From: an uncultured Eubacteriales bacterium
GTDB lineage: Bacteria; Bacillota; Clostridia; Christensenellales; Aristaeellaceae
DNA: 60,173 nucleotides
NCBI GenBank assembly: GCA_900318145.1
Contig: ONJM01000015.1
Location: forward strand, 1-60,173
Reading direction: 5' to 3'
Below the pieces are notes generated by a model. It did no database searches, had not been told where the DNA came from, and worked only from the letters and a program-made list of their open reading frames with translations. Positions 2 through 60,173 of this stretch are shown here, in pieces; position 1 is the first letter of the stretch, and the number at the start of each line of letters is the position of its first letter. The position numbers and the translations under genes are program-made.

Positions 2-3000
2 CCTGCCGGAGTGTTTATTAACCGCTACGGCATGGCGAATACGAACGTAAACTTCCGGACCGGGCCCGGAACAAAGAGCAGCGCAATCCGGAAGGTGCAT
101 GACAGGGAATACATATACCTGATTATGAACGAAACCGGAACGGACGGCGAACTCTGGAGCAGAGTGAACGTAAACGGAACGGAAGGATATATCAAGAGCG
201 AATTCATCAACCTGCTGAGTGAAGAGGAAAGCCAGGCTTATGACGCTGTCCAGCCGAGTCCGGCACCGGTCTACACTTCAGAACCGGCACCGGAACCTAC
301 GGCAGAACCGACGCAGGAACCTACGGCAGAGCCTACGGCGGAACCCACGTCCGAACCTACGCCCGAACCTACGCCCGAACCTACGCCGGAACCAACGCCG
401 GAACCAACTCCGGAACCAATTCCGGATCAGGCGGATATCCTTCCAGTCGGTGAACTGATCAACAGATACGGCATAGCGAACACAAACGTGAACTTCCGGA
501 CCGGGCCCGGCACAAAGAGCAGCGCAATCCGGAAAGTACGCGAGAGGGAATATGTATACCTGATCATGAACGAATCCGGAGCGGACGGCGATCTCTGGAG
601 CAGAGTGAACGTAAACGGAACGGAAGGATATATCAAGAGCGAGTTTATCAACCTGCTGAGCGAAGAAGAGAGCCGGGCATATGATGCCGTCCAGCCGAGT
701 CCTGCACCGGTCTACACTTCAGAACCGGCACCGGAACCTACGGCAGAACCGACCCAGGAACCTACGGCGGAACCTACGTCCGAACCTACGCCCGAACCTA
801 CGCCCGAACCTACGCCGGAACCAACGCCGGAACCAACGCCAGAACCAATTCCGGATCAGGCGGATATCCTTCCCGTCGGTGAACTGATTAACCGGTACGG
901 CATCGCGAATACGAACGTGAACTTCCGGACCGGCCCCAGTACAAAGAGCAGCGCAATCCGGAAGGTGCATGACAGGGAATATATTTATCTGATCATAAAC
1001 GAGTCCGGAACGGATGGCGAACTATGGAGCAGAGTCAATATCAAGGGTACAGAAGGATATATCAAGAGCGAGTTTATTAATCTGCTGAGCGAAGAAGAGA
1101 GCCGGGCATATGACGCTGTTCAGCCGAGTCCTGCACCGGTCTACACTTCAGAACCGGAACAGGAAATAACGGCAGAGCCGACCCAAGAGCCTACTGCGGA
1201 ACCTACGCCTGAACCTACGCCGGAACCTACGCCTGAACCTACGCCGGAACCTACGCCGGAACCGACACCCGAACCTACGCGCGTACCAGCTGACACAATT
1301 CAGACCGGAGAATACATTAACCTGTACGGTATCGCAAACGAAAATGTCAATTTTCGTAAGGGACCCGGCAAAAATCATACCCCGATCCGGAAGGTGCTCG
1401 AAAAAGAATATGTTTATCTGATTGATAATGTGATCGGAACAGACAACGAATTGTGGAGCAAGGTGATCGTCAACGGTACGGAAGGGTATATTATGAGCGG
1501 GTTTATCGACCTGCTGACCGAAGAGGAAAGCAGTGCGTACGACGCTGCCCAACCGAGTCCGGCTCCGGTTTACACCGCAGAACCGCAGCCAACGCTGGAA
1601 CCAACACCGGAGCCTTCTGTTGCTCCAACACCCACGCCGGAACCGACCCCCGAACCCACGCCGGAACCGACACCGGAACCAACACCCGAACCTACGCCGG
1701 AACCGACACCAGACCCCACACAGGAACCAACACCTGAACCAACATCCGAACCTACGCCGGAGCCGACATCCGAACCCACACCGGAACCGACATCCGAACC
1801 CACCGCTGTTCCGACTGCTACGCAGGAACCTTATCAGCGAACCGGATACCATATCACAATCGGCGACGGAGCTTATGTGCATAGTTGGCCGGGAAGCACC
1901 AGCGTGATTATCGATGAGCTTGGTCCGAACAAAGTTGTGTATGTACAGGGACAGCACTATGTGGACGGAATCGGATGGCATCTTGTGATGTATGATAACG
2001 GATCCCGGGGTTACGTCCGGGCGGATATGCTGCGGATGATGAACGAATATGAAGTGCTGGAGTATCTGGAAAACACGAAAATCACACCGGAACCTGAACC
2101 TGAACCGATTATCACGGTTGCACCATACGATCCGGATTCCCTGAGCTGTTACGGGTATGTTTCAGCGGATTCCGTCAATTTCCGGAAGCAGCCGTCCACC
2201 CAGTCCGACAGGATTTCAAGACTGAAAAAATATGCGCTATGCCTGATTTATGACACAGTGGATGCAGACGGAAAACCGTGGTATAAGGTTGGATATGAGG
2301 GAACGATCGGATATGTAAACGGCGATTACTTCAGGCAGATGACCGTAAGCGAAGCTGAAGCGTTCTTCCAGTCCAGGGAATATGCGGAAGGCGTGAACAA
2401 CAATACCTCTGAAGATCAGCCGAAGGTTACGCCCGCCACAACCGGAACAGCTTCAGGCATCGCGTCTGCAGAGGACTGGCAGGTCGAAACCTGGAAGAAT
2501 CCGGACAGCGGCATTACTGTCAGCTATGCGCCTTTCGATCCGTTTGCCACACCTGCTCCTTTGCCGGAAAACGATATAAGGAACAAGGAATACCTTGATT
2601 CCCTGGCGGAACGAATCCGGAAAGGAAGCCTGAAGGAAGAAGATCTGGAGAGGCTTCTTGAAACAGCGTACAGAGACAGCGCGGACAAGGAAACAATTAT
2701 CAGCAGCGCACTGAACTATGTACGGGAGAAACTGGGAACCGAAATCATCGCGGAGGAGACAGCCACACCTGAGCCTGTCCCGATGGAAACGGAAGAAAAT
2801 CCCCAGTATGAGCAGGAAAAGGGAGGAAGCGCGCTGGGATGGATTATCGGCGGCTTGCTGCTTGCTGGAGCAGGAGGAGGCGGATACGTCTATTACTCTT
2901 CGGTACAGAAGAAACGGCAGGCAGCACAACGGCTGGCGCAGAAGAAAGCTGAACAGCAGCGTAAGGTGCAGACAGCAGGAAAACAACCGTCCGGAAGCAG

Positions 3001-3283
3001 CGGAACGCAAAAGGCACAACCTGTATCAGCCCAGCAAGCTGCGAAAGTCCGTACGGGAACCTATACCGAAAAGAACGGCGCAACGGCTTCCAAACCTGCC
3101 GGAACAGCCGGCAGCACCGGAAAACCATATTCAAAGACGATGGAAAACCCATACGGCCGTTATACTTCCAGCGGTGAGGAAGACGCAACTTACACAGCTT
3201 CCTTCAAACCGGGAGAAAACAGAAAAACCAACGGCAGCCGCAGAAGAAGCGGCGGAACCGGGAACGGAGAGACAAAAACATGA
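2..3283 (+). CDS. SH3b-repeat, PEPT-linker, membrane-anchored surface protein (5' partial)
   Basis: The frame is open from the window edge and the first visible module is already under way, so the true start lies upstream; the GTG at 11 is probably internal. It holds four near-identical bacterial SH3 (SH3b) modules with the motif VNFR(T/K)GP at about residues 14, 161, 304 and 447 (counted from position 11). Two more divergent SH3-like modules follow at about 640-700 and 755-820. The modules are joined by long Pro-Glu-Pro-Thr linkers. One membrane segment lies near residues 940-960 (LGWIIGGLLLAG), followed by a Lys/Gln/Ser-rich tail of about 130 residues. A large outside part and a small cytoplasmic tail are therefore likely. 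SH3b domains usually bind peptidoglycan or surface peptides, so a cell-wall role is inferred. No catalytic domain is visible. The stop overlaps the start of the next small gene. Confidence 0.8.
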   Translation, partial: PAGVFINRYGMANTNVNFRTGPGTKSSAIRKVHDREYIYLIMNETGTDGELWSRVNVNGTEGYIKSEFINLLSEEESQAYDAVQPSPAPVYTSEPAPEPTAEPTQEPTAEPTAEPTSEPTPEPTPEPTPEPTPEPTPEPIPDQADILPVGELINRYGIANTNVNFRTGPGTKSSAIRKVREREYVYLIMNESGADGDLWSRVNVNGTEGYIKSEFINLLSEEESRAYDAVQPSPAPVYTSEPAPEPTAEPTQEPTAEPTSEPTPEPTPEPTPEPTPEPTPEPIPDQADILPVGELINRYGIANTNVNFRTGPSTKSSAIRKVHDREYIYLIINESGTDGELWSRVNIKGTEGYIKSEFINLLSEEESRAYDAVQPSPAPVYTSEPEQEITAEPTQEPTAEPTPEPTPEPTPEPTPEPTPEPTPEPTRVPADTIQTGEYINLYGIANENVNFRKGPGKNHTPIRKVLEKEYVYLIDNVIGTDNELWSKVIVNGTEGYIMSGFIDLLTEEESSAYDAAQPSPAPVYTAEPQPTLEPTPEPSVAPTPTPEPTPEPTPEPTPEPTPEPTPEPTPDPTQEPTPEPTSEPTPEPTSEPTPEPTSEPTAVPTATQEPYQRTGYHITIGDGAYVHSWPGSTSVIIDELGPNKVVYVQGQHYVDGIGWHLVMYDNGSRGYVRADMLRMMNEYEVLEYLENTKITPEPEPEPIITVAPYDPDSLSCYGYVSADSVNFRKQPSTQSDRISRLKKYALCLIYDTVDADGKPWYKVGYEGTIGYVNGDYFRQMTVSEAEAFFQSREYAEGVNNNTSEDQPKVTPATTGTASGIASAEDWQVETWKNPDSGITVSYAPFDPFATPAPLPENDIRNKEYLDSLAERIRKGSLKEEDLERLLETAYRDSADKETIISSALNYVREKLGTEIIAEETATPEPVPMETEENPQYEQEKGGSALGWIIGGLLLAGAGGGGYVYYSSVQKKRQAAQRLAQKKAEQQRKVQTAGKQPSGSSGTQKAQPVSAQQAAKVRTGTYTEKNGATASKPAGTAGSTGKPYSKTMENPYGRYTSSGEEDATYTASFKPGENRKTNGSRRRSGGTGNGETKT
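20..1750 (+). repeat. Tandem coding repeat of SH3b plus PEPT units
   Basis: Four copies of a long unit start at the Asn codon of the N-(R/L)-Y-G motif at 20, 461, 890 and 1319, giving periods of 441, 429 and 429 bases. Copies 1 to 3 are almost identical at the DNA level and copy 4 is more diverged, which suggests recent duplication of the first three. Each unit ends in short direct repeats of the GAACCTACG / GAACCAACG type that encode PEPT, a likely substrate for slippage or unequal recombination. Confidence 0.85.
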
Positions 3284-3387
3284 CAAAAAGCAAAGCTGAA
3301 AGGAAGAAAGGGTATATCCGCATCGGAGCCCTGGTAGTCGCGGGCGTGATGGCACTGTCCATTATTCTGGCCGTGATTATCAAATAA
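3280..3387 (+). CDS. Small single-pass membrane protein, 35 aa
   Basis: This short gene begins at an ATG that overlaps the TGA of the SH3b gene (ATGA junction), with GGAG at 3266-3269 as ribosome binding site. The N-terminus is strongly basic (about seven Lys/Arg in the first dozen residues). A hydrophobic stretch at about residues 15-34, rich in Val, Ala, Ile and Leu, is followed by a single Lys and the stop. That is the layout of a single-pass membrane miniprotein with its N-terminus inside. The tight coupling suggests that it works with the SH3b surface protein, for example in anchoring or assembly, but this is inference. I recognise no family. It could also be a chance frame, though the start overlap, the clean topology and the hairpin just after it argue that it is real. 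Confidence 0.6.
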   Translation: MTKSKAERKKGYIRIGALVVAGVMALSIILAVIIK

Positions 3388-3397
3388 ATCATCTGCT

Positions 3398-3426
3398 GCG
3401 CAGCCGGAGGCAGTCTCCGGCTGCGC
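3398..3426 (+). terminator. Hairpin after the SH3b / small peptide genes
   Basis: A perfect 12-bp GC-rich stem (3398-3409 with 3415-3426) has a 5-base loop and is followed only by CTTTGAA. The T tract is poor, so it may be a weak terminator or an mRNA 3'-end stabiliser before the next gene. Confidence 0.45.
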
Positions 3427-3462
3427 CTTTGAATACCGGGACAGAACGGAAGGAGGCGGGGC

Positions 3463-4749
3463 ATGGGAGAGAAAAGGAAAAGAAAAGTATCAGCAGGGAC
3501 GCTTGTGATTCTGACGTCCTCTCTGGTGATTCTCGGACTGACATTTTTCGTGCTGAACCGCTTGTCTTCCGGCGCACGCATTGATCTGAGCCGGCTGCGC
3601 CCGGAAACAATACAGCTAAAAGATCATCAAAGGACGGAAAAGGAAGCGGAGAATCCGCAGGAAGCAAGGATTCAGCCTGCAGCCGCAGCGGTACCGGAAA
3701 TGCCATCGGTCCCTTCGGTTCCGGAAAGAAGAAGCTTCACGCTGACCGCAGCCGGAACGGTCGCGCTGACGGGTGAAGTGCGCACAAACAGCTATTATTC
3801 CGATGTAAAGCAATACGATTATTACGATGTCATGTCCCTGCTGAAACCGGAGCTGGATTCTGACCTGAATGTCGTATTCCTTGAAAACATTCTGAGTGCG
3901 GACGGAAAAACATCGGATGTGATATCCAACGGTGCAGCGGCAGCGATGCTGAAAGCCGCAGGTTTCAATACTGCGGCGTGCGGCTTTTCAAAAGTGTTTG
4001 AAAAATCGGAGGAAGGCGTCCAATCCACCCGAAACATTCTGGAAGAATACGGAATCCGGCCGCTGGGCATTTACGGAAACAACGGAAGCGACAACATAAC
4101 CGTTACCGATATCAACAGAATACGAACGGCGATGCTGCAGTATACGGAAACGATACCGGCCGCCACAAGAAAAAATATGAACAAACAGGGAAAGGCGCAG
4201 ATGGTTCCGGCGGCGGATCCGGAAACTGTCGCATCCGACATCGCCAAAGCCCGTGAAGCGGGGGCGGAATTTGTAATCATTCTTCTGCATTGGGGGAAAA
4301 GCGGCAGGGAACCGGACAAAAATCAGCGGAACCTGGCTCAGCAGATTGCCGATGCCGGAGCGGATCTGATTATCGGATGCGGCAGCAGAATTGTTTCGGG
4401 CGCGGAAATGCTGGCCGGTACGGGGACCGGGAAAGAGACGCTTTGCGTCTGGAGCCTCGGGACATTACTGAGCGGGGACCGGGGAAATATCAGACGGATC
4501 GCCGGAATACTGCTTCACGTTACGGTATTCTCCGAGGAAGGAAGGACCTGGGTCCGGGAATACGGTTATACACCGGTATATACGTGGAAATACAAGATGG
4601 ACAGCCGGTTTTACTATCGCTGCCTTCCTGCGAACGGGACTGTTCCGGACGGAATGGATTCAGATCAGCAAAAGCAAATGAAAAAAGCTGCGGATGCCGT
4701 AAGAAATGCCGTGAAGGGAACACTGCTGAAGGAGTACGGCATTGAATAA
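3463..4749 (+). CDS. CapA-like (PGA_cap) membrane-anchored protein, degenerate active site
   Basis: A protein of 428 residues with a basic N-terminus and one membrane anchor at about residues 12-32, then a domain with the overall layout of CapA/PgsA-type poly-gamma-glutamate capsule proteins of the metallophosphatase fold. Family landmarks still visible are LHWG, ADLIIG and WSLG. The motifs that normally carry the metal ligands are changed. The opening GD reads as GTVALTG, the NLE motif as VFLEN, the NNH motif is missing in the stretch AACGFSKVFE, and HPH is replaced by GCGSR. I infer a non-catalytic or re-purposed envelope protein. AGGAGG at 3451 lies 6 bases before the ATG. The 3' end overlaps the next gene by 8 bases, so translation is probably coupled. 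Confidence 0.7.
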   Translation: MGEKRKRKVSAGTLVILTSSLVILGLTFFVLNRLSSGARIDLSRLRPETIQLKDHQRTEKEAENPQEARIQPAAAAVPEMPSVPSVPERRSFTLTAAGTVALTGEVRTNSYYSDVKQYDYYDVMSLLKPELDSDLNVVFLENILSADGKTSDVISNGAAAAMLKAAGFNTAACGFSKVFEKSEEGVQSTRNILEEYGIRPLGIYGNNGSDNITVTDINRIRTAMLQYTETIPAATRKNMNKQGKAQMVPAADPETVASDIAKAREAGAEFVIILLHWGKSGREPDKNQRNLAQQIADAGADLIIGCGSRIVSGAEMLAGTGTGKETLCVWSLGTLLSGDRGNIRRIAGILLHVTVFSEEGRTWVREYGYTPVYTWKYKMDSRFYYRCLPANGTVPDGMDSDQQKQMKKAADAVRNAVKGTLLKEYGIE

Positions 4750-55183: not shown

Positions 55184-55231
55184 ATTCTCAAAAGGCAGGA
55201 ATGCCAAAAAGAAAAAATGGAGGAAAAAACT

Positions 55232-56203
55232 ATGAAGAAACTGATCGCTCTGGTAATTGCTCTGGCGATGGTGCTCTGCACGGCTGCCGCTCTGGCGGAC
55301 GGGATCAAGGTCGGCATCATCAATCTGGATCCCGCCGAATCCGGATACCGTGAAGCTAACGTGAAAGACATGACAGACACCTTTACCGCTGAAAATGGCT
55401 ATGATGCTTCCTTCGTGACCGCCCCCACCGCTGACAAGCAGCTGGACGCCGCCCGCGGATTTATCACCGACGGTGTGAAGTACATCCTGGTTTCCGCTGC
55501 GGATGCTGATGGATGGGATGAAGTTCTTCAGGAAGCGAAAGATGCCGGTATCGGCGTGTTCCTTTTCGACCGTATGGTAAACGCTTCCCCCGACCTGTAC
55601 ACCGCTGCTGTCGTTTCCGACATGGCAAAGGAAGGCGAAACTGCTGTAGCGTGGCTGGAGAACCTTGGACTGGAAGAGTACAAGATTCTGCACATCAAGG
55701 GACAGCTGGGCAGTGCTGCGCAGCTGGGCCGTTCCGGCGCTCTGGATGCCAAGTGCGAAGCTGAAGCCAACTGGACCATCGTCCGTGAAGGTACCGGCGG
55801 AGACAGCTGGGATCCTGAAGAAGCCCGTAAGATCGCGCAGGCTGCTATCGACGCCGGTGAGGACTTCAACGTTATCTACGCTGAGAACGACGGTATGGCC
55901 AACGGCGCTGTGGAAGCTCTGGATGCCAAGGGAATCACCCATGGTGTAAATGGTGACGTTGTTGTCATGGGCTTTGACTGCAACAAGTGGGCGCTGCGGA
56001 AACTGCTGGCTGGCGAATGGAACTACGACGGACAGTGCAGCCCCTTCCAGGCCAAGCTGATTGATGAAATGATCAAGACCCTTGAAGCCGGCGGAACAAT
56101 TGAAGGCCTGAATGAACTCGGCCAGATCATCAATGTGGAAGTCGGTTTCGACGCCAAAACTATTACAGAAGCTGACATCGAAGCTTACGGACTGGGCGAA
56201 TAA
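55232..56203 (+). CDS. Sugar ABC transporter substrate-binding protein
   Basis: 323 residues. A signal peptide (LIALVIALAMVLCTAAALA) ends in ALA before DG; the only Cys is preceded by VL, which is not a lipobox, so it appears to be a freely secreted protein rather than a lipoprotein. The mature part is a type I periplasmic-binding protein: KVGIINLDPAESGYREAN, ADGWDEVLQEAKDAG, IYAENDGMANGAVEAL and VMGFDCN. This is the layout of the YtfQ / ribose-galactose family (CUT2). The start at 55232 has GGAGG 8 bases upstream; an ATG five codons earlier lacks one. It heads the transporter operon and is followed by a strong hairpin. Confidence 0.92.
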   Translation: MKKLIALVIALAMVLCTAAALADGIKVGIINLDPAESGYREANVKDMTDTFTAENGYDASFVTAPTADKQLDAARGFITDGVKYILVSAADADGWDEVLQEAKDAGIGVFLFDRMVNASPDLYTAAVVSDMAKEGETAVAWLENLGLEEYKILHIKGQLGSAAQLGRSGALDAKCEAEANWTIVREGTGGDSWDPEEARKIAQAAIDAGEDFNVIYAENDGMANGAVEALDAKGITHGVNGDVVVMGFDCNKWALRKLLAGEWNYDGQCSPFQAKLIDEMIKTLEAGGTIEGLNELGQIINVEVGFDAKTITEADIEAYGLGE

Positions 56204-56313: not shown

Positions 56314-57867
56314 ATGGAGAATCAAACGGTCCTGGCAAAAGATCGTAATACCCCGCAGCAGGAAAACGACGTCGTACTGGCCATGCGCGGGATCAGTAAA
56401 TTTTTTCCGGGAACAATTGCGCTGAACAAAGTGGATTTTACCCTGCGCAAGGGGGAGATTCACGCGCTGATGGGTGAGAACGGAGCCGGGAAATCCACGC
56501 TGATCAAGGCGCTGACCGGAGTATATCCGAAGGATGAAGGCAAAATCTTTGTGGACGGTGCGGAGGGCGAGGTGCATATCCATTCTCCGCAGGATGCGCA
56601 GAATTTGGGGATCAGCACCGTGTATCAGGAGATTAACCTCTGTCCGAACCTGACCGTGGCGGAGAATATGTTCATCGGACGGACAAATCAGATCCGTGTG
56701 CATTGGAAGGAAAACGAAAAACGGGCGAACGAGATTCTGGAGAATCTCGGCATTCCCGCAAGGGCAAATCAGGAACTATCCCGCTGCTCACTGGCTGTAC
56801 AGCAGATGGTTGCGATTGCCCGCGCTGTCGATATGCAGTGCAAGGTGCTGATCCTGGACGAACCGACGTCCTCCCTGGATGAAAAGGAAGTGCAGATGCT
56901 GTTCGGACTGATGCGTGACCTGAAGAGCCGGGGGGTCGGCATCATTTTCGTAACCCATTTTCTGGAGCAGGTATACGAGGTCAGCGACCGGATTACGGTA
57001 CTCCGGAACGGTGAACTGGTCGGTGAATATCCGATCAGCGAACTGCCGCAGGTGGAGCTTGTGGCCAGGATGATGGGGAAGGATCTCAATGATCTGGCGG
57101 ACCTGGAGGAGATCGGCCAGAAGAAGACCGCGGGCGAAAAGCTGGTATATGAAGCGGAAAATCTGTCCAGTTCGGAGAGCCGGCCATTCAGCTTCCGAAT
57201 CATGGAAGGCGAAGTGAACGGTTTTACAGGCCTGCTGGGTTCCGGACGAAGCGAAAGCGTCCGGGCGATTTTCGGTGCGGACCGCGTTACGGGTGGCAAT
57301 GTGAAGGTCAAAGGGAAAAAGGTCAATATCACAAAACCGCATGACGCCATGAAAGCCGGCATCGGCTATCTGCCGGAGGACCGGAAACGGGACGGAATTA
57401 TCGCGGACCTGTCCGTGCGGGAGAACATCATCCTTGCCCTGCAGGTCATGAAGGGATTCTTCCATCCGATGAGCAAAAAGGAAACGGAACAGTTTGCGAG
57501 TGAATACATTGACGCACTGAAGATCAAGACAGCCAGCCAGGATACACCGGTGGGCAGCCTGTCCGGCGGGAACCAGCAGAAAGTGATTCTGGCGCGGTGG
57601 CTGCTGACGCATCCGGATTACCTGATTCTTGACGAGCCGACGCGCGGAATAGACGTCGGCACCAAACTGGAAATCCAGAAGCTGGTACTGAAACTGGCCG
57701 CGGAAGAAAACATGAGTATTACTTTCATTTCGTCCGAAATTGAGGAAATGCTCCGCACCTGCTCCCGGCTGATCGTTATGCGGGACCGGAACATCGTGGG
57801 CGAGCTTACAGGTGAGGATCTGAATCAGTCCTCTGTCATGAAAACAATAGCGGGAGGTGGACAGTAA
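56314..57867 (+). CDS. Sugar ABC transporter ATP-binding protein, two domains
   Basis: 517 residues with two fused ATPase domains, as in MglA, RbsA and YtfR. The first has Walker A GENGAGKST (near residue 54) and Walker B VLILDEPTS, with a degenerate signature (LSRCSLAVQQM). The second has a weakened Walker A (LLGSGRSE), the signature LSGGNQQKV and Walker B YLILDEPTRGIDVG. That asymmetry is normal for this family. AAGGAG lies 9 bases before the ATG. It energises the two permeases downstream. Confidence 0.95.
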   Translation: MENQTVLAKDRNTPQQENDVVLAMRGISKFFPGTIALNKVDFTLRKGEIHALMGENGAGKSTLIKALTGVYPKDEGKIFVDGAEGEVHIHSPQDAQNLGISTVYQEINLCPNLTVAENMFIGRTNQIRVHWKENEKRANEILENLGIPARANQELSRCSLAVQQMVAIARAVDMQCKVLILDEPTSSLDEKEVQMLFGLMRDLKSRGVGIIFVTHFLEQVYEVSDRITVLRNGELVGEYPISELPQVELVARMMGKDLNDLADLEEIGQKKTAGEKLVYEAENLSSSESRPFSFRIMEGEVNGFTGLLGSGRSESVRAIFGADRVTGGNVKVKGKKVNITKPHDAMKAGIGYLPEDRKRDGIIADLSVRENIILALQVMKGFFHPMSKKETEQFASEYIDALKIKTASQDTPVGSLSGGNQQKVILARWLLTHPDYLILDEPTRGIDVGTKLEIQKLVLKLAAEENMSITFISSEIEEMLRTCSRLIVMRDRNIVGELTGEDLNQSSVMKTIAGGGQ

Positions 57868-57868
57868 G

Positions 57869-58963
57869 ATGGTTCAGAAGGCATACGCCCGAAAGCGGAG
57901 GGATTTTTCCCAGCTTATCATTCCGCTGGCAGCGCTCGGTATCCTGATCCTTTTCAATCTGTTCAGAGGCATTGCTATCGGGGATTTGGGTTTTTTCAGC
58001 ATCGGTACCCGGGTCAATAACGACGGAAACACGGTATTGGCCGGCAATCTGATCAGCATTATCGACGACGCCAGCGCCCTGGCTATTATCGCCATGGGGA
58101 TGACGCTTGTTACTGCAGCCTGCGGCGGACAGGACATTTCCGTCGGCGCCGTGGGAGCCATTTCCGGCGCGGTCTTTGTGAAAGTGCTGGACGCTTTCGG
58201 ACTCGACAAAATTTCCGCCGGAAGTATTATTGTCGCCCTTCTTGCGGCTATCGCGGTCACGATTGTATTTACTCTCTTCAACGGAACGCTTGTTTCCGTT
58301 TTCAAGATCCAGCCGATGATTGCCACGCTGATTCTTTTCTCCTGCGGCCGTTCCATCGCGTATATGATTACCGGGAGTGCCACACCGCAGCTGAACGACA
58401 AGCTGATCAACGCCATCGGAAAAACTATTCCGGGTATCCCGATCCCGACGCCGATTTTTCTGGTGATTATTATGGCGCTGCTTCTTGCGCTGATTTTCAA
58501 AGTCACGAATCTGCGGCTGTATACGCAGACGGTGGGAATCAACCAGGGAGCCGCCAGGCTGAACGGCATCAATCCGATGATCATTAAACTCCTTTCGTTT
58601 GTGATCCTCGGCGTCTGCGTTTCCCTTGCTTCCATGATTCAGGTCTGCCGGCTGAACCAGCTGTCCCACAAGACGTTGTTGGACGCGATTGAGATGGACG
58701 CAATTCTTGCCGTGGCCATCGGCGGAAACAGCCTGGGCGGCGGTAAATTCCGCCTCTCCGGCACGATCCTCGGTTCGTATATTATCCTGATGCTCACCAA
58801 TACCCTGAACGACATGAGCGTAAAGCCGGAATCAATCAAGGCATATAAGGCAATCGTCATCATCATTATTGTGATTGCCGGTTCTCCCGCGGTGAAGGAA
58901 AAAATCTCAGCGCTTTGGAACAGAATGCACAGCGGTTCCCAAAAAGCGGTGACAGGGAGGTAA
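57869..58963 (+). CDS. Sugar ABC transporter permease (YtfT-like)
   Basis: 364 residues, about eight to ten membrane helices. The segment MTLVTAACGGQDISVGAVGAI is the family's conserved loop (xGGIDLSVGA type), and IGGNSLGGGKFRLSGTILG near the C-terminus is the cytoplasmic coupling region for the ATPase. It matches the CUT2 permease group (RbsC, YtfT). GGGAGGTGG lies 8 bases before the ATG at 57869, directly after the ATPase stop. Confidence 0.94.
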   Translation: MVQKAYARKRRDFSQLIIPLAALGILILFNLFRGIAIGDLGFFSIGTRVNNDGNTVLAGNLISIIDDASALAIIAMGMTLVTAACGGQDISVGAVGAISGAVFVKVLDAFGLDKISAGSIIVALLAAIAVTIVFTLFNGTLVSVFKIQPMIATLILFSCGRSIAYMITGSATPQLNDKLINAIGKTIPGIPIPTPIFLVIIMALLLALIFKVTNLRLYTQTVGINQGAARLNGINPMIIKLLSFVILGVCVSLASMIQVCRLNQLSHKTLLDAIEMDAILAVAIGGNSLGGGKFRLSGTILGSYIILMLTNTLNDMSVKPESIKAYKAIVIIIIVIAGSPAVKEKISALWNRMHSGSQKAVTGR

Positions 58964-58968
58964 AGGAT

Positions 58969-60027
58969 ATGACAGTGAAAAATCCTGAAAACACCGTCCG
59001 CAGACGGCCTCCGATGTCCAATACAAAACTGCTGATGCTTATTGCCATCGGGATCTTTGTTGCTATGTACGCCGCAGCAATGATTTTCATCGGAAAACGC
59101 TTTCTTTCACTCCAGGAGATCTTCAACCTGCTGAACAATAACGCTTATCTGATTATTCTCGGCTGCTCGCTGACCATTGTAATGATCGGCGGAGGAATCG
59201 ATATCAGTGTCGGCGGCGTTGTTTGCCTAACGGCCATGAGCTGCGCGAAGTTTCTGCAGACGTCGGGGATTGAGGGACCCGGAGGCGTGATTCTCTCCCT
59301 GCTGCTGGCGCTCGGTATCGGCCTTCTGTTCGGCTGCGAACAGGGCTTCCTGGTCAGCTATCTGGGTATCCAACCCTTTATTGTCACCCTGGCTGGTATG
59401 TTCCTGTCCCGCGGGGTCACCACCATGATCTCCAGCGAGAACGTACCGATCAAACATGAAGCTTTTCTGGAAATGAAGAAGTTTACCTTTCAGATTCCTG
59501 GTGTGTTCAAGCTGGAGCTCGGAGCCGCAATCGCTCTGCTGATCCTTGTGGGCATGTATCTGCTGCTGCGACATCACAAACTCGGCCGCAGTATTTATGC
59601 TCTGGGCGGAAACCAGCAGAGCGCGCTGATGCTTGGCATCAACGTGAAGCGTTCCCGGTTTTTCAGCTATATTATCAGCAGCGTGCTCGCTGCGCTGGCA
59701 GGATATGTTTTCATCATGCATGCATCCTCCGGCAAAACCAGTATCGGCCTCCGGAGTGAGATGGACGCGATCGCATCCGCCATTATCGGCGGTACGCTGC
59801 TGACAGGCGGTGTAGGCAATGTTTTCGGAACCTTCTTCGGGGTGATGATCCTGACTACAATCCAGGAGATCATGGCCGCCAGCAAAGTACAGGAATCCTA
59901 CTGGCAGGAGATCGCGAGCGGCGCCATGCTGGCTCTCTTTATTCTGATGCAGAGCGTGGTACTGGACCGGAGAGGAAAGAAGATGCAGCTTCCGTCCTGG
60001 CTGAAAATACAGCGAAAAAAAGAATAA
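58969..60027 (+). CDS. Sugar ABC transporter permease (YjfF-like)
   Basis: 352 residues, with a basic cytoplasmic N-terminus and about eight to ten membrane helices. It has MIGGGIDISVGGVVCL and IGGTLLTGGVGNVFGTFFG, the same conserved loops as the first permease but a different sequence. Two non-identical permeases with one two-domain ATPase is the YtfT/YjfF layout of the galactofuranose transporter. GGGAGG lies 8 bases before the ATG; the gap to the previous gene is 5 bases. A terminator and an intron follow. Confidence 0.94.
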   Translation: MTVKNPENTVRRRPPMSNTKLLMLIAIGIFVAMYAAAMIFIGKRFLSLQEIFNLLNNNAYLIILGCSLTIVMIGGGIDISVGGVVCLTAMSCAKFLQTSGIEGPGGVILSLLLALGIGLLFGCEQGFLVSYLGIQPFIVTLAGMFLSRGVTTMISSENVPIKHEAFLEMKKFTFQIPGVFKLELGAAIALLILVGMYLLLRHHKLGRSIYALGGNQQSALMLGINVKRSRFFSYIISSVLAALAGYVFIMHASSGKTSIGLRSEMDAIASAIIGGTLLTGGVGNVFGTFFGVMILTTIQEIMAASKVQESYWQEIASGAMLALFILMQSVVLDRRGKKMQLPSWLKIQRKKE

Positions 60028-60044
60028 AAAGTGATAAAATCATC

Positions 60045-60073
60045 AAGGAGCTGCCATGGAGGCAGCTCCTTTT
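60045..60073 (+). terminator. Terminator of the sugar ABC operon
   Basis: An 11-bp stem (60045-60055 with 60061-60071), a 5-base loop and a TTTT run. It ends the transporter operon and is the likely target of the intron just after it. Confidence 0.87.
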
Positions 60074-60077
60074 GATA

Positions 60078-60173
60078 GTGTGCCGGGCATGGCACAATTC
60101 TAGCGGGTGAAAGTCCCGCCACGGGTATTTACCGCCAAGTGTAGCGAACCGCAAGCTGCTGTTAGCAATGACA
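60078..60173 (+). mobile_element. Group II intron, 5' end (runs past the window)
   Basis: The sequence begins GTGTGCCGGGCATGGCAC, the conserved 5' end and first pairing of bacterial group II introns. Next comes GCGGGTGAAAGTCCCGC, a domain I hairpin whose shape (GGG-UGAAAGU-CCC) closely resembles the Oceanobacillus iheyensis class C intron. Only 96 bases are visible; the ribozyme domains and any reverse transcriptase lie outside. Its place 5 bases after a terminator T run is the classic site of class C introns, so that class is inferred. Confidence 0.85.

Follow-up and report, generated by a model that had tools for sequence, protein, structure and literature searches.

The DNA analysed here (the window) is a stretch of 60,173 nucleotides, which represents the whole of contig C11 of genome G000 (63 contigs, 88% complete), and it raises the question of which element begins directly behind a sugar transporter operon at its very end, and why the contig breaks off there. 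According to the original prediction, these are the opening bases of a group II intron that is cut by the window edge. Indeed, GTGTG is found at position 60078, in agreement with the GUGYG 5' end of group II introns, and the plus-strand sequence 60078-60173, which begins GTGTGCCGGGCATGGCACAATTCTAGCGGGTGAAAGTCCCGCC and which we annotate as the first 96 nt of a group IIC intron, contains the expected GGG-TGAAAGT-CCC hairpin in the form GCGGG-TGAAAGT-CCCGC at 60103-60119. The element is cut as predicted, the window being a complete contig that ends 96 nt into the intron. For RF02003, the Rfam model of the domain I-IV region of group II introns, a match extends over 60101-60173, where the contig cuts it off; it scores 23.4 bits at an E-value of 0.0024 for 374 bases, which is under the gathering score of 49 bits. 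At gathering thresholds, no Rfam match was obtained anywhere in the window, presumably because just 96 nt of the intron are present.

The genes preceding the element on the plus strand encode a sugar-binding protein (55217-56203), an ATPase with two ABC domains (56314-57867), a first permease (57857-58963) and a BPD_transp_2 permease (58981-60027; this start codon was picked by eye, the mechanical ORF start being 58915), and their order and spacing suggest one operon of a sugar ABC transporter, with the hairpin and the intron behind its last gene. The hairpin is of the terminator type and comprises 11 bp at 60045-60071 (arm AAGGAGCTGCC at 60045-60055, loop ATGGA, arm GGCAGCTCCTT at 60061-60071). 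When folded as DNA, the stretch 60040-60077 reaches -14.1 kcal/mol, which was equalled by none of 200 shuffles. On the plus strand, TTTT follows at 60070-60073, the first two T lying inside the stem, and is succeeded by GATA (60074-60077), with which the 5' exon ends and which probably represents IBS1, going by the IBS1 position given in PMC10190682. The intron thus begins 4 bases past the T run and not 5, as had been proposed. On the minus strand the hairpin is followed by GATGATTTTA, and a terminator scan classified it as terminator-like on this strand only. The earlier label of a strong terminator therefore needs a caveat: the 11-bp hairpin is present, but the scan gives no terminator on the plus strand, where the T run is short with just four T. 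The hairpin may serve both directions, or mainly the minus strand.

Two other places in G000 are near-identical to the final 134 bases of the window. The intron 5' end also occurs at the end of contig C37 and at the start of C56. These sequences are 100% identical over the 94 bases compared, and a different hairpin stands before each of the three 5' ends. Using a full-length copy (described below) as the query, we located the intron 3' end at C57:1-99, C52:1-98 and C17:85014-85111, in each case with 100% identity to this query across 98-99 bases. The copy on C57 ends CTACCCTAT, fitting the group II 3' end AY, and here we also found the domain V-VI that the original prediction implied: C57:26-98, the one of the three 3' ends on which the D5/D6 model RF00029 was tested, matches it with 35.9 bits (E 1.1e-5), under the gathering score of 40 bits. 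Domain V of the intron reads GCGCCGTA...TACGGTGC and carries a CGC triad, which is the IIC form of this domain. The contigs reach 96-97 nt into the 5' end and 97-98 nt into the 3' end of the intron, so that three intron copies explain six contig ends in G000. The window stops in the intron probably because the intron is repeated in the genome, the stop being most readily ascribed to the repeat handling of the assembler. Searches of G000 gave no match to RF00029 at E ≤ 0.001, the copies with their 35.9 bits being below the cut-off and too weak genome-wide, no match to the RVT_1 profile at E ≤ 0.001, the intron interior not being found in the genome, and no match to the protein of the full-length copy L064 at E ≤ 1e-60. 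The same genome also harbors, at C61:26558-26710 (L074, L103), the decayed 3' remnant of a related intron, which is truncated on its 5' side and 86% identical. It lies a little downstream of a sequence that by eye resembles a tRNA gene in its 5' half; no tRNA was detected here by ARAGORN.

Outside G000, the 5' end was matched at E ≤ 0.001 in 17 of the 100 genomes searched, counting the window's own, the weakest match being 33 bases at 85% (G010), and in several relatives it is 93-99% identical to that of the window over 90-94 bases. No match was obtained when plasmids were searched with the terminal 134 bases of the window. A complete intron of 1930 nt is present at 2272-4201 of L064, a 6527-base IMG/VR viral contig, where a tail tape-measure gene and then a hairpin precede it and a distal tail (Dit) gene comes next. 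This full copy was recognised by group II covariance models, as anticipated, namely RF02001 (113 bits), RF01998 (40.3 bits) and RF00029 (35.9 bits, the last under the gathering score of 40). The expected reverse transcriptase is likewise found in full copies elsewhere: L064 encodes a 458-aa reverse transcriptase/maturase with RVT_1 and GIIM, in which Pfam at E 0.001 recognised nothing beyond these two domains, and no endonuclease domain. The protein passes TIGR04416 (416 bits vs a cut-off of 300), and its best scores against solved structures are 389.5 bits for 7uim (residues 25-436) and 334.8 bits for GsI-IIC (6ar1), those for LtrA (164.2 bits) and 6me0 (139.2 bits) being far lower. Domain V of L064, GCGCCGTATACC...GGTACGTACGGTGC, also shows the CGC triad. 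A second full-length copy in G033 is 99.6% identical to L064 over 1932 nt and looks broken, since its protein is split over two frames (C168:126795-128170). At E ≤ 1e-60 the L064 protein was matched in 24 of 300 genomes of the family, which are an even draw from a larger group, while a viral scan with this protein gave the L064 contig itself as the sole match. Two of the remoter matches, L147 (protein identity 79%) and L150 (58%), also possess the 5' end, domain V and a 3' end.

The pairing of the contig ends was approached through the neighbouring genes. The first gene of C57 encodes a GH67 protein (alpha-glucuronidase family) and is directed towards the intron, its stop codon lying 26 bases from the intron 3' end (L104 99-127). 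Relatives of GH67 are located close behind the orthologous permease, and converge with it, in G013, G011 and G027, and this synteny makes C57 the contig that follows the window (C11). The nearest relatives by DNA, G013 and G011, harbor an extra gene between permease and GH67 (judged by eye), which is why G027 (57% complete) was taken as the intron-free case. In this genome permease and GH67 converge with no further gene in between, and the interval holds a hairpin and TTTTCATATAC but no intron, so that an empty site exists in a relative. C37 probably pairs with C17, as judged from one relative, G029, in which counterparts of the two end genes, at 43% and 61% identity, show the expected convergent arrangement; in G011 similar end genes are adjacent, but in an orientation unfit for a simple join. 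C56 is assigned to C52 by elimination only, and no C52 protein was found next to the relative of the C56 gene in G011.

To describe the target of the element, we collected 71 distinct 5' flanks by matching the 39-base 5' end with up to 8 substitutions, of which L016 was left out because its boundary is misplaced by a small duplication. All of the remaining 70 flanks fold at -14.5 kcal/mol or below in the 45 nt preceding the intron, and 69 of them at -15 kcal/mol or below; TTT occurs within 14 nt in 60 flanks and TTTT in 50. In comparison, 1000 random 45-mers of the window, a control that mostly consists of coding DNA, in which hairpins are less frequent than downstream of genes, average -9.3 kcal/mol (sd 4.0, lowest -26.9). 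When hairpins were searched for explicitly, 54 of 67 flanks exceeded the highest score among 1000 random stretches of the window (27), and none of the 1000 attains the median score of the flanks. The lowest scores, 12 to 16, belong to L120, L047 and L027, and 285 of the 1000 controls reach 12; these flanks fold stably nonetheless. The 3' exon starts with T at eight of eight ends; L147 adds another T and the more distant L150 a C. With genomes such as RUG199, in which the intron occupies 17 distinct insertion sites, the many copies constitute a natural data set for the target choice of class C introns.

Considering the matching 3' ends, the D5/D6 match, the reverse transcriptase of the full copy and the intron-free relative, the prediction of a group II intron behind the sugar transporter terminator is supported, all of the sequence elements that it described being present, and we regard it as almost certain that the window ends in the opening part of a mobile group IIC intron, whose three copies in G000 are identical where comparable and which is located behind a terminator-type hairpin. 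That the 5' end instead belongs to a stand-alone structured RNA or to a decayed intron fragment that is not mobile was already disfavoured and is barely conceivable: decayed fragments do exist, both in G000 (C61:26558-26710) and in relatives (L068, L069), but G000 contains three matching 3' ends, the D5/D6 match at C57 and the synteny that links C11 to C57. It is also very improbable that the intron belongs to a class other than IIC, for example to the terminator-associated g6 type. According to PMC8919778, terminators also directly precede nearly half of the introns whose proteins are of the types g6, U1 and U2, and these types are close to class C in the tree of that survey. The evidence against such a class is that the best solved relatives are IIC, that no endonuclease domain was recognised and that domain V carries the CGC triad. 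Class C, together with the fitting target and orientation that had been predicted for it, is hence supported by the solved IIC relatives, the absence of any recognised endonuclease domain, the CGC triad and the hairpin folds at 70 of 70 sites.

The alternative with the greatest weight concerns the part of the copies that the assembly omits. The three copies in G000 could be internally deleted and protein-less with both ends intact, either as leftovers or moved in trans by the protein of another intron, since some relatives hold internally deleted copies. L067 (G007; 2033-2434) retains 148 nt at its 5' side and 253 nt at its 3' side, and L070 (G041; 2915-3529) 57 nt and about 550 nt, the interior being gone in both; moreover, neither the RVT_1 nor the L064 protein search detected an intron protein in G000. 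However, a contig stop after 96-98 nt is expected at any identical repeat longer than the assembler word, so that the missing interior weighs neither way, and the identity of the shared ends among the copies suggests recent insertion. We therefore consider deleted copies rather unlikely, and on the preferred reading of a mobile intron the copies in G000 would be active and their missing interior complete.

Insertion of class C introns behind terminators is already known, reportedly from an original paper by Robart et al. 2007, and the behaviour of this element fits it. Such insertion behind intrinsic terminators is described in a review and a survey (PMC4424553, PMC8919778), and a terminator-like DNA stem-loop was used as the target in the experiments of PMC7161350. 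The structure of a IIC intron-maturase in PMC10190682 displays a bound DNA stem-loop, with EBS1-IBS1 forming four pairs and one additional pair being present, and with one EBS3-IBS3 pair that involves a T. By analogy with this published work on class C, spliced intron RNA together with the reverse transcriptase/maturase would recognise a DNA hairpin of the intrinsic-terminator type, along with an IBS1 that is short, at about 4 nt, and in most cases a T immediately past the site, would insert by reverse splicing into the strand with the hairpin 5' of the site, and the RNA would then be copied into DNA. The target in the present case was the hairpin between the transporter operon and the converging GH67 gene. 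One of the phage group II introns in PMC12350094 is found behind a terminator, a position typical of IIC, and L064 is likewise on a viral contig and behind a hairpin.

With group IIC introns such as B.h.I1 and GsI-IIC the element shares the hairpin target, the orientation, the GTGTG 5' end, the CGC triad, a reverse transcriptase and maturase protein without a recognised endonuclease, and a 3' exon that mostly starts with T. No essential difference from these introns was found; the element forms a separate lineage in one Clostridia family, with many copies in some genomes. Several named members of this family come from rumen or omasum samples, and among the titles listed for group II introns and the rumen none describes this lineage, which is no proof of absence. 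The closest solved protein is the group IIC intron-maturase of Eubacterium rectale (7uim, 390 bits), of which we take PDB 7uim and 7uin to be the entries. The EBS1 sequence differs from that of the E. rectale intron, and in our lineage the presumed EBS1 varies between copies.

The variable part is a domain I loop of the form GC NNNN CA, for which the role of EBS1 is suggestive only. With the loop and the register picked after inspection of the alignment, 19 of 24 positions pair with the exon in six copies, L067 and L068 being left out because their loops are deleted or decayed. Permuting the six pairings gave equally good results in 6 of 720 cases, and in 2 of 120 without the near-duplicate L065. 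The pairing is perfect in only two of the six copies, and L044 fits badly (2/4). The two exon bases directly preceding the intron are more uniform within genomes than between them (score 308 vs a permuted mean of 136, reached in 0 of 10000 permutations; 56 copies in nine genomes, single-copy genomes being left out). An EBS1 of TATC, as in L053, would pair with GATA, CGTA and TATA, in which the exons before the three copies in G000 end, at 4, 3 and 3 of 4 positions, and the four exon ends in the genome of L053 itself pair with TATC at 1 to 4 positions. It is conceivable, although we lean slightly against it, that the intron lineage alters a 4-nt EBS1 by species within a conserved loop, the copies of a genome sharing their last exon bases. 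If so, this would be one terminator-targeting element with fast-changing fine targeting, and GATA, CGTA and TATA would predict an EBS1 near TATC for the intron in the window.

The finding itself is an ordinary one, in which an intron repeat accounts for a contig break. For the neighbouring gene, the insertion might have consequences: if GH67 used the same hairpin and the copy is full length, the terminator was moved about 1.9 kb off GH67, and because of this displacement the converging gene need not be unaffected by an intron that lands behind a bidirectional terminator. The GH67 gene faces the transporter hairpin, and the intron may lie between it and a bidirectional terminator that it would share with the operon.
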